In this document: positions 19,140 to 22,715 of the stretch, one piece after another
Layout: each line of letters opens with the position of its first letter
Position numbering within the stretch: position 1 is the first letter of the stretch
Origin: Chthoniobacterales bacterium
GTDB taxonomy: Bacteria; Verrucomicrobiota; Verrucomicrobiia; Chthoniobacterales; DASVRZ01
Length of the DNA stretch: 64,000 bases
Reading direction: 5' to 3'
NCBI GenBank assembly: GCA_039930045.1
Contig: JBDSQB010000017.1
Coordinates: 1 to 64,000 of the forward strand
Program-made: the position numbers and the translations under genes
Notes under the pieces: model-generated
The model's input: the letters and a program-made list of their open reading frames with translations, nothing else
Database searches by the model: none
What the model was told of the DNA's origin: nothing

Positions 19140-20240
19140 TTAGCGGATATCGTTCGTGGGCTTGAAGTCCTTGTCGTAAACGTTTGTGTCGCGCATCGAA
19201 GTCACCACAGGCAGAGCCTTTTCCAATGAGGGCGACGAGGTTTTTGACAGAACGTTTTTGCCGGACGCGTCACATACGTCGAGAATCCAGCCGCCGTATT
19301 TGTAGCCGAATCGCGCGTCGGTCGTGTCATAAGCGGTGTCAAATTCATCTGTGGTGAATTCTTTTTCCGTGCGTGGAGCGAGTTTCAGATCGAACGAGCC
19401 GCGGCCCAGCAGCTTACGATGTCCCCTGTAAAGAATGCTGTCGGCAAAAATAAAGACCGTGGCTTTCAACGGCTCCGTGGCGAGCTGCGGATCGGTGTTC
19501 GAGATTTTTGCCTTCAAACGGATGTGGTCGATTTTATCGTCGTAGTCGCCTCCCTCGATGCGGCTTCGGCGAAGACGGACCATTTCGACCAGCAGCTTTG
19601 ATGGAGCTATAAAACCGGATGGTTTTACAGGGGCGGATATTGTGGAAACGGAAGTAGCTGCCGTCCTTCCGGGAGTGCTCGCGGCATTCAAATTCGTTTT
19701 GCCAATCATAGTCGCGACGGGGGCCACACCCTCTGCGGCAGGACGCAGCTTTTCGGCACGTGCCAGCAGATCGGTGGAGGTCGCCGGGATGGTGGTGGGG
19801 GTGTTGTTGAAGCTCACTTCAAGACCTTGGAGGGTCGGGCGGATGACTTGCACGACGGAGCCGGCAGGCCTCGTTGCGGCTCCCACTATTTTACCATCCA
19901 GCATTAGCGGAAATTGGGCGGGCCTAGTGAGCACCACTTCCTTGGGCCAAAGAGATCGATCCCGCACCACATCCGACAAGGTCAGTGGAGCGCGCGCGAT
20001 AGGTGTCGGTGTGGCAATGGGAGTCGGAGTCTCCTCCACGCGAGGCGTTTCTTCCGGCGTCGGAGTCGGAGAAGCCTCGAGAATCGGTTTTTCGATGATC
20101 GGCACCGGTGTCGGCGTCTCCTCAGATGGCGGAACAGATGGTTGCCGGGTGCAAGAAGTAAAAAAAAGGCTATTCGCCAATAACAAAGCCAACCATGGAA
20201 GCCCCTTTCGATAATCACCGACAAGTAGCTTACTGATCAT
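19140..20240 (-). CDS. Proline/threonine-rich lipoprotein, function unknown
   Basis: 366 residues from the ATG at 20240. A signal peptide with lipobox-like LFFTSC (Cys about residue 30) predicts a lipoprotein. A Pro/Thr/Glu-rich linker (about 34-85) resembles a wall- or envelope-spanning stretch. The C-terminal half is an ordinary mixed region with FGYKYGGWILDV near the end. No family recognised. It converges with the DciA-like gene. Confidence 0.75.
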   Translation of the reverse strand: MISKLLVGDYRKGLPWLALLLANSLFFTSCTRQPSVPPSEETPTPVPIIEKPILEASPTPTPEETPRVEETPTPIATPTPIARAPLTLSDVVRDRSLWPKEVVLTRPAQFPLMLDGKIVGAATRPAGSVVQVIRPTLQGLEVSFNNTPTTIPATSTDLLARAEKLRPAAEGVAPVATMIGKTNLNAASTPGRTAATSVSTISAPVKPSGFIAPSKLLVEMVRLRRSRIEGGDYDDKIDHIRLKAKISNTDPQLATEPLKATVFIFADSILYRGHRKLLGRGSFDLKLAPRTEKEFTTDEFDTAYDTTDARFGYKYGGWILDVCDASGKNVLSKTSSPSLEKALPVVTSMRDTNVYDKDFKPTNDIR

Positions 20241-20375
20241 GAAAGAACGTTTATAGCCCGCGATTGATACGAACAAGTATTAGTTGAAATCTCTCCTGCT
20301 GATTTGGGTGTCAAAATTCCTGCGACCCATAGGATTTGCGTCGTATTTTCCCTTTGTCATAAACACGATGCAGGC

Positions 20376-21341
20376 ATGATCAAAAACGTCATCCTCGATT
20401 GGTCCGGCACGGTGGTGGACGATTTGCGCCCGGTCGTCCAGGCGACCAACGCCGTCTTTGCTGAGTTCGAGTTGCCCTCGATCACGCTGGAAGAATTTCG
20501 CGCCGAATTCTGCCTTCCGATGGATCCGTTTTACGAAAAACGCATGTCGGCACACTCGATGGACGTCATCAATGAGGCCTATCACCGCCACTTCGTCCCC
20601 TTCGCCGAGGCCGTCGAACCGCTGCCGAACTCGCGCGCCTTCCTCGAATTTTGCCAGAAAACGGGCCGCCGCCTTTTCGTTCTCAGCACCATCAGCCCGA
20701 GCCATTTCGAGCATCAGGCGGGCAAATTTGGCTTCACGGAATTTTTTGAGCGGAGTTACACCGGAATCATCGACAAACGCCACGAGATCGGAGAAATCCT
20801 CCGCGTTCACGGGCTTCAGGCGCACGAGACGCTTTTCGCTGGCGACATGGTCCACGATGTCGCCACGGCGCATCACGCCGGAGTGCTGGCCGTCGCGTTG
20901 CTCAGCGGGTTTGACGATCACGCCAAGCTCGCCGCCGCCGGTCCCGATGTCATCGTTCGTGACCTCGGCGACCTGCAAATCCTCATGGAATCCATCGGAA
21001 ATGAGCGGAGTTGCATTCGTATCGACGGCCTGCAAATTGACGCCCGCGTCGGCGTGCCTGACGAGGAAATCGCCCATCCGCAGCGCCTCCTCCTCGACAT
21101 TGCGATCCAACCCAAATCACTTTTTTCCGACATGCGCGACGACGTTTGCAACACCGTCGATTACGCCGCCGTCTGCGAAGCGATCCGCCATTTTGCCACG
21201 AGCAGCCAATGGCGTCTCATCGAAACTCTCGCTGCGGATGTGAGAAAACAAATCCTGACTTTTCCCAACGTCGCCTCCGCCCGCGTGAAAGTCCGCAAAT
21301 TCATTCTGCCCTACACCGAGCAGGTCAGCGTGGAAATTTAA
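20376..21341 (+). CDS. Fusion of HAD-superfamily phosphatase and dihydroneopterin aldolase (FolB)
   Basis: 321 residues in two domains. The N-terminal HAD domain (1-205) has nucleophile D8 in LDWSGTVVD, T105, K134 and the GDMVHD motif (D157, D161). The usual second Asp of DxD is Ser10, as in phosphonatase-type HADs (DxAGT). The C-terminal domain (212-321) is FolB-like, with Glu230/231, Tyr263, Glu283 and Lys308 at the positions expected for the aldolase active site. FolB makes 6-hydroxymethyl-dihydropterin in folate synthesis. The fused phosphatase may supply the dihydroneopterin dephosphorylation step; this is inference. A hypothetical gene follows after 6 bp. Confidence 0.9.
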   Translation: MIKNVILDWSGTVVDDLRPVVQATNAVFAEFELPSITLEEFRAEFCLPMDPFYEKRMSAHSMDVINEAYHRHFVPFAEAVEPLPNSRAFLEFCQKTGRRLFVLSTISPSHFEHQAGKFGFTEFFERSYTGIIDKRHEIGEILRVHGLQAHETLFAGDMVHDVATAHHAGVLAVALLSGFDDHAKLAAAGPDVIVRDLGDLQILMESIGNERSCIRIDGLQIDARVGVPDEEIAHPQRLLLDIAIQPKSLFSDMRDDVCNTVDYAAVCEAIRHFATSSQWRLIETLAADVRKQILTFPNVASARVKVRKFILPYTEQVSVEI

Positions 21342-21680: not shown

Positions 21681-22649
21681 CTAAACGGCTGTTGCACTCA
21701 CCGTTTCTTCTGCAAACGGCTGCTGCGGAATGAGGTCCAGCTTCGCGAGTAAATCGAGGTCGGCGTCTTTGCCGGGGTTGGCGGCGGTAAGGAGTTTGTT
21801 GCCGTAGAAAATGGAGTTCGCGCCCGCAAAGAAACACAGCGCCTGGCCCTCGGGTGTGAGCCGGGTGCGACCGGCGCTGAGGCGGACTTTGGCTTTCGGC
21901 ACGGCGATCCGTGTGACGGCGATAAGGCGGACGAGTTCGAAAATGTCCACCGGTGGCTGGGTCTCCAGCGGCGTACCGGGCATGGACATGAGGCAATTGA
22001 TCGGCACGCTCTCCGGGGGTGGATTGAAACTGCAAAGGGTCTCCAGCATTTTCAGCCGGTCGGTGATGGTTTCGCCCAAGCCGATGATGCCGCCGCAGCA
22101 GACGGCCATCCCGGTTTTTTGCACGCTGCCGATGGTGTTGAGCCGGTCCTGAAAGGTGTGCGTGGTGACGATCTCCGGGTAAAAATCCTCGGACGTGTCG
22201 ATGTTATGATTGTAAGCCGTCACGCCCGCGTCCTTCAGCCGCTCAGCCTCGCGGTCGGTGAGGTTACCGAGGGTCACGCAGACTTCCATGCCGAGTTTGC
22301 TGACTTCGCGAATCGAATCCAGCACCTGCTCGAAGCGCGAGTCGCCGTCGCGGACGCCCTTCCAGGCGGCTCCCATGCAAAAACGAGTCGAGCCATTTTC
22401 CTTCGCCTGCCGGGCAATCGGCAGTATCTGCTCGGTGGTCATCAGGCGCTCGGCCTGCACACCAGTCGTGTAGCGCGCGCTCTGGGCGCAGTAGCCGCAA
22501 TCCTCCGAGCAGCCGCCCGTTTTGATCGAAAGCAGCGTGCAAAGCTGCACCTCGTTGCCGGTCCAATGCTCCAGATAAACGTCGCGGCTTTGCGAGATGA
22601 GCTGGAAAAAGGGTTGGTGGTAGAGGCGTTCGAGGTCGGCGAGTTTCAT
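21681..22649 (-). CDS. bioB: Biotin synthase
   Basis: Radical SAM enzyme that inserts sulphur into dethiobiotin in the last step of biotin synthesis. 322 residues, normal length. The [4Fe-4S] cysteines are C47, C51 and C54 in GCSEDCGYC, and YNHNIDTSE plus the C-terminal GRTRLTPEGQ are typical BioB motifs. The ATG at 22649 is used; a TTG seven codons upstream is possible. No other bio gene is in the window. A spaced inverted repeat lies just upstream of the start. Confidence 0.96.
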   Translation of the reverse strand: MKLADLERLYHQPFFQLISQSRDVYLEHWTGNEVQLCTLLSIKTGGCSEDCGYCAQSARYTTGVQAERLMTTEQILPIARQAKENGSTRFCMGAAWKGVRDGDSRFEQVLDSIREVSKLGMEVCVTLGNLTDREAERLKDAGVTAYNHNIDTSEDFYPEIVTTHTFQDRLNTIGSVQKTGMAVCCGGIIGLGETITDRLKMLETLCSFNPPPESVPINCLMSMPGTPLETQPPVDIFELVRLIAVTRIAVPKAKVRLSAGRTRLTPEGQALCFFAGANSIFYGNKLLTAANPGKDADLDLLAKLDLIPQQPFAEETVSATAV

Positions 22650-22663
22650 GCGAGTGGAATAGT

Positions 22664-22715
22664 AGAACAAGCTTTCAGCCTGTTGGCAGTCAAAAAAACA
22701 AGAGGGACTTGTTCT
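22664..22715. promoter_or_regulatory. Spaced inverted repeat upstream of bioB
   Basis: AGAACAAG (22664-22671) and CTTGTTCT (22708-22715) are exact complements separated by 36 bp, in the gap between bioB and the neighbouring secreted-protein gene. It could be an operator or a terminator-like stem for the upstream gene. It does not resemble the classical BirA box. Confidence 0.35.

Follow-up and report, generated by a model that had tools for sequence, protein, structure and literature searches.

The window analyzed here, a stretch of 64,000 nucleotides from a Chthoniobacterales bacterium (contig JBDSQB010000017.1), contains a gene that encodes a HAD hydrolase and dihydroneopterin aldolase (FolB) in a single reading frame, from the ATG at 20376 to the TAA at 21339-21341. 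The genes and features of the locus, with positions in the window, are the following:

19140..20276, minus strand: upstream neighbor, an uncharacterized proline/threonine-rich protein, on the strand opposite to the fusion gene
20376..21341, plus strand: complete HAD-FolB fusion gene, 321 aa and a TAA stop; homologues share the start Met
20376..20990, plus strand: HAD hydrolase domain with a phosphoglycolate-phosphatase-like fold and a C1 cap (residues 1-205), from the Pfam HAD_2 and structure matches
20397..20411, plus strand: HAD motif I, D8-W9-S10-G11-T12; D8, W9, G11, and T12 in 80/80 sequences, S10 in 79/80
20688..20690, plus strand: HAD motif II, T105; Thr or Ser in 79/80 sequences
20775..20777, plus strand: HAD motif III, K134; 80/80 sequences
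20844..20858, plus strand: HAD motif IV, D157-M-V-H160-D161; D157, M158, H160, and D161 in 80/80 sequences
20991..21014, plus strand: inter-domain linker of ~8 residues (about 206-213), the gap between the domain borders
21015..21338, plus strand: FolB (dihydroneopterin aldolase) domain, residues 214-321, Pfam FolB E 1.2e-21
21066..21299, plus strand: FolB catalytic residues E231, Y263, E283, and K308 (codons at 21066, 21162, 21222, and 21297), invariant
21681..22670, minus strand: downstream neighbor, biotin-synthase-like, named from sequence, with a radical-SAM cysteine motif recognized by eye

That one gene encodes both a HAD and a FolB domain, as an earlier note on this DNA proposed, is borne out by the Pfam matches to both within the one open frame. 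The HAD_2 match spans residues 5-174 (E 7.6e-15, above the Pfam cut-off), and the FolB domain scores 77.8 bits against a cut-off of 31.8. The same domain exceeds the cut-off of TIGR00526 (62.4 vs 45.05) and falls just under that of the TIGR00525 equivalog (66.9 bits vs 72.15), as do the stand-alone folB products of two relatives, at 71.3 and 69.3. A profile built from these FolB domains finds dihydroneopterin aldolases of solved structure, with 3o1k as the best match (E 2.3e-21). Residues E231, Y263, E283, and K308 do not vary among 27 fused homologues or across the FolB alignment; E231, Y263, and K308 correspond to the catalytic Glu, Tyr, and Lys of FolB structures. The AlphaFold2 model of the fusion has a mean pLDDT of 92.3 across both domains and a pTM of 0.66, so that the relative placement of the domains is unsure.

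A frameshift or assembly artefact can be ruled out as the origin of this gene because full-length homologues (about residues 1-320) recur, at 35-49% identity. Indeed, the fusion is a single ORF in 26 other genomes of the class that were read. Both neighboring genes are on the other strand; hence, the fusion gene is not part of a longer operon, and in the window's genome, the fusion itself is the only tie between the HAD and FolB. No promoter or terminator was predicted around the gene.

Association of the HAD family with folB

Homologues were sought in 286 genomes of the class, which yielded full-length matches to the fusion and many more to the HAD alone. One locus per genome was then read in 90 HAD-carrying class genomes, including that of the window, with the architecture assigned by the best domain scores. 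This survey of fusion and adjacency, which the earlier note had suggested as a check, shows that folB is either fused to the HAD gene or located directly downstream, on the same strand, in 83 of the 90 genomes. The architectures include 27 HAD-FolB fusions, 19 cases of a HAD gene followed by a separate folB, 36 HAD-NUDIX fusions followed by folB, and one HAD-NUDIX-FolB fusion. In each of the 83 linked loci, the folB domain lies 9 to 1326 bases past the HAD domain, downstream and on the same strand. At the remaining 7 of the 90 loci, there is no folB in the stretch read, and all seven genomes carry it elsewhere. In three loci (L037, L040, and L042), the folB start and the preceding stop overlap as ATGA, an arrangement that suggests coupled translation.

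A NUDIX domain is the third recurrent component. HAD-NUDIX fusions are present in 43 of the 90 HAD-carrying genomes, including the one triple fusion, in which Pfam identifies HAD, NUDIX, and FolB within one 528-codon ORF (528 aa; L066). Pfam detects NUDIX after the HAD in 7 of the 8 HAD genes tested, at about 1e-21 to 1e-24. The Nudix box GX5EX7REUXEEXGU is intact in the linked domains, with its G, E, R, E, E, and E invariant in the 25 sequences compared, and the predicted structure of the linked NUDIX has a pLDDT of 90. The fold does not settle the substrates of Nudix enzymes. Against the NudB equivalog NF006961, the linked NUDIX domains score 33.2 and 26.9 bits (cut-off 103); because homology is a poor guide to Nudix annotation (PMC1971073), these low scores do not decide the substrate.

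A quickly computed tree was made from 80 HAD domains, with SH-aLRT as the sole measure of support; the window's sequence has a long branch in it. The HAD-FolB label requires 5 changes on this tree, at least 3 of these changes being forced by well-supported branches. Thus, gain or loss of the fusion occurred several times. The genus f11 includes a genome with the HAD-NUDIX fusion followed by folB (L037) that is placed among three HAD-FolB genomes (L003, L004, and L006), so that the NUDIX domain is gained or lost while the HAD stays with FolB. Many genomes of the class, in families f2, f6, f8, f10, f22, and others, encode FolB yet lack this HAD, and no HAD or NUDIX of the linked type was found beside folB at the loci of such genomes (L197-L214). 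Dephosphorylation of dihydroneopterin in these genomes therefore needs another enzyme.

Several genomes of the class depart from these arrangements in other ways. Two Akkermansia-like genomes (G100 and G134), from the genus that includes HAD-FolB carriers such as L007 and L023, lack both FolB and the HAD and keep FolE2 and FolK; G100 encodes a pterin-binding protein of FolP size, and G134 only one of MetH size. The joint loss of the HAD and FolB in these two genomes was discarded as evidence, the two domains being encoded by one gene in that genus. Replacement of FolB by PTPS-III was considered for both and is not supported: the single PTPS of each has the CxxxHGH motif that a queuosine-type enzyme would show. 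A second kind of FolB fusion, to a cpYpsA SLOG domain, occurs in two genera of family f18 (L300, 1414-2526, minus strand; L301, 868-1848, plus strand; L299, L302, and L304), with E about 1e-52 to 1e-54 for PF12694 in the two loci tested and the HAD located elsewhere in the genome.

Active site and boundaries of the HAD family

The HAD half of the fusion belongs to a tightly conserved family. In the alignment of 80 HAD sequences, position 10 of motif I is Cys in the one sequence that does not have Ser, and residues N25, F41, F45, L47, and P48 of the cap region are invariant as well. R42 and Y53 are further conserved residues of the cap. By its fold, the nucleophile D8, and the conserved motifs II-IV, the domain is a member of the HAD superfamily in the broad sense. 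In motif I, however, the second Asp, which is the usual general acid-base of these enzymes (PMC8069645), is exchanged for Ser. Judged by this motif, the domain is outside the canonical DxDxT/V phosphatases, and therefore, standard phosphomonoesterase chemistry cannot be assumed for it. The FolB part has all four catalytic residues in place; if the apparently complete active site of the earlier note was meant to include the HAD part, it is not canonical there. Some HAD enzymes that lack the second Asp are active.

The nearest solved structure is 2ah5 (Z 26.6, rmsd 1.9 over 204 aligned residues). Phosphoglycolate-phosphatase-like HADs (2ah5, 2hsz, and 2nyv) share the fold and the cap type with the window's domain and provide the best matches in both structure and sequence, but the window's family differs from them by the Ser in motif I and is a tight family of its own, scoring at best 45 bits against the cut-off of 225 of the phosphoglycolate phosphatase equivalog. 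Across 388 genomes of the phylum, the orthologues score at least 249 bits and the next-best HADs at most 108, which leaves a clean gap, and every ortholog found belongs to one class. In a scan beyond the phylum, the best 80 of 519 matches are nearly all titled Verrucomicrobia and subgroups, and a tblastn search against plasmids produced no match. Some residues differ between the NUDIX-linked and NUDIX-free HAD proteins, a difference that is confounded with the tree.

The pterin branch and the predicted step of the HAD

The genome that contains the window (3.52 Mb, 99.9% complete) was searched family by family for the folate pathway. The HAD-FolB fusion is its sole FolB, and FolE2, FolK, and FolP are present. 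FolE (GTP cyclohydrolase I) was found neither in this genome nor in most of the relatives tested, but given that FolE2 is present, the substrate can be made nonetheless. The pterin branch is present in this organism, with entry via GTP cyclohydrolase IB (FolE2). When both enzymes were sought in ten genomes of the class, nine proved to have FolE2 without FolE (the FolE2 loci are L256-L278), and one (G009) to have FolE without FolE2. G009, in which FolE takes the place of FolE2, lacks the HAD; three PTPS domain matches lie in one 423-codon ORF adjoining its folE (L295-L297 and L245; C21:27625-29375).

The NUDIX type that is linked to the HAD in relatives was not found in the window's genome, where the best match reaches 34 bits compared to 220 in a carrier genome. 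The other tested genomes in which the HAD is fused to FolB or directly precedes folB also lack it, with the best other matches at no more than 56 bits against 220. The five NUDIX proteins that Pfam finds in the window's genome resemble RppH, a KsgA-NUDIX protein, MutT, and two ADP-ribose-type hydrolases, and no recognizable dihydroneopterin triphosphate pyrophosphatase or NudB-like protein was found among these five. A dedicated NudB, which the earlier note took as an argument against its proposal, is thus missing from the five, and the presence of NudB would not refute a monophosphatase role anyway. The KsgA/RsmA rRNA dimethyltransferase of this genome is fused to a YfcD-like NUDIX domain (L033, C4, 574-1920, plus strand).

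Two dephosphorylations precede FolB, and Nudix hydrolases convert dihydroneopterin triphosphate to the monophosphate (PMC1971073, PMC5526541). Because a Nudix enzyme fits the first of the two, the HAD is left with the second, and because Nudix makes the monophosphate, NUDIX, HAD, and FolB match three consecutive steps. We therefore predict, from linkage, conservation, and domain make-up, that the HAD is a dihydroneopterin-monophosphate phosphatase that produces dihydroneopterin, and consider this assignment to be correct with a probability of about three in four. It is supported by the class-wide adjacency to folB, the repeated fusion, and the existence of HAD-NUDIX and HAD-NUDIX-FolB proteins. 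Against it stand the Ser in motif I, the many FolB-encoding class genomes that lack this HAD, and the failure to recognize a dihydroneopterin triphosphate pyrophosphatase in the window's genome. The core of the earlier proposal, a HAD that removes phosphate from a dihydroneopterin phosphate ahead of FolB, is strongly supported by the same findings, except that the triphosphate need not be the HAD substrate.

Under this prediction, FolE2 would convert GTP to dihydroneopterin triphosphate, from which a pyrophosphatase of the Nudix type would generate dihydroneopterin monophosphate; about half of the relatives read have this NUDIX fused to the HAD. The HAD would then take off the last phosphate via a phospho-aspartate intermediate, with D8 as the nucleophile, T105, K134, and the metal-binding D157/D161. 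The FolB domain would cleave dihydroneopterin to 6-hydroxymethyl-dihydropterin and glycolaldehyde, yielding the product for FolK. The order of pyrophosphate removal, removal of the last phosphate, and aldol cleavage is the one to which the gene linkage points. We infer the substrate and the activity of the HAD as well as the order of the steps; a hand-over of its product to FolB (channelling) is a possibility that the physical linkage raises.

The strongest competitor is a HAD of wider range that, in lineages without a NUDIX partner, also acts on the tri- or diphosphate. Cleavage of an anhydride provides a good leaving group and makes a general acid less necessary, as would suit a Ser at the position of the second Asp; moreover, the linked NUDIX is absent from the window's genome and from the other tested genomes with the HAD-FolB fusion or with folB directly after the HAD, and there is no NudB type among the five NUDIX proteins of the former. 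However, the Ser is equally common in the NUDIX-fused HADs, so it is not an adaptation to the loss of NUDIX, and Nudix hydrolases are versatile, such that one of the five could take dihydroneopterin triphosphate. We consider the wider range unlikely. Comparably doubtful is its fullest form, namely, that in the Nudix-less lineages a dedicated, class-specific Ser-site HAD would perform the whole dephosphorylation of the triphosphate and hand the product to its own FolB, with the triple polypeptide of one lineage performing three consecutive steps.

Alternatively, the HAD could be a pyrophosphatase that removes the PPi of the Nudix step, thereby driving the pathway toward its product. Its structural neighbors include HAD inorganic pyrophosphatases of Bacteroides (3qut and others, Z about 22), and there is a weak profile match to PpaX. 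However, the PpaX score is 26 bits vs a cut-off of 218, and where NUDIX is absent, the HAD is kept with FolB as its fusion partner instead of an enzyme that releases pyrophosphate, which renders this role very improbable. Even less can be said for a phosphonatase-like enzyme or a hydrolase of a side product, such as glycolaldehyde phosphate if FolB cleaves the monophosphate directly. The motif of phosphonoacetaldehyde hydrolase is D-x-A-G-T. The D-W-S-G-T of the window's HAD resembles it, and the phosphonoacetaldehyde hydrolase 1rql is a structural neighbor (Z 21.3); yet the phosphonatase profile scores 26.7 bits vs 220 and covers only residues 2-45, and there is no conserved cap Lys, K134 being the sole invariant one. 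Assignment of the HAD as PhnX was rejected on these grounds, and such a role would also leave the NUDIX partner unexplained. A catalytically dead HAD that merely binds pterin or regulates FolB, to which the loss of the second Asp in motif I might point, is just as improbable, since the nucleophile and the residues of motifs II-IV are invariant or nearly so across the class, whereas a dead domain would be expected to have lost them in some lineages.

Returning to the dihydroneopterin-monophosphate phosphatase, the step that it would fill has long been attributed to a non-specific phosphatase, in sources from 2007-2019 (PMC1971073, PMC5372827, PMC6451014), and a 2026 review has an 'unidentified phosphatase' in its figure of the pterin pathway (PMC13259868).

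Known relatives of the arrangement and implications

A search of largely open-access literature found no description of folate-synthesis proteins in which HAD is fused to FolB, to NUDIX, or to both. For Parachlamydia sp. UWE25, Table 2 of PMC1971073 lists FolQ and FolB as a fusion, and hence, fusion of a dephosphorylating step of the pterin branch to FolB is not itself new. In that table entry, however, the partner of FolB is a Nudix enzyme (FolQ/NudB) for the first step, whereas the partner in the window is a HAD, most likely for the second step, with NUDIX as an optional third component. The HAD as a fusion partner of FolB appears to be new.

A HAD of the same fold is also fused to the enzyme of an adjacent step in MtlD of Acinetobacter baumannii, the mannitol-1-phosphate dehydrogenase/phosphatase (7ocs; Z 21.8 over 207 residues against the window's HAD), which differs from the fusion described here in partner, pathway, and substrate. 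Riboflavin synthesis, another vitamin pathway that starts from GTP, likewise has HADs at an orphan dephosphorylation (YigB and others), but these are described as non-specific (PMC12051542), unlike the HAD of the window, which represents a single family linked to the pathway gene across the class.

With a conserved family linked to folB, a single purified protein would be enough to put the old orphan monophosphate step to the test. The exchange of the usual catalytic Asp for Ser offers a natural test of how HAD phosphatases can work without that Asp, and the members of the HAD family are candidates for the annotation of folate synthesis in Verrucomicrobiia.
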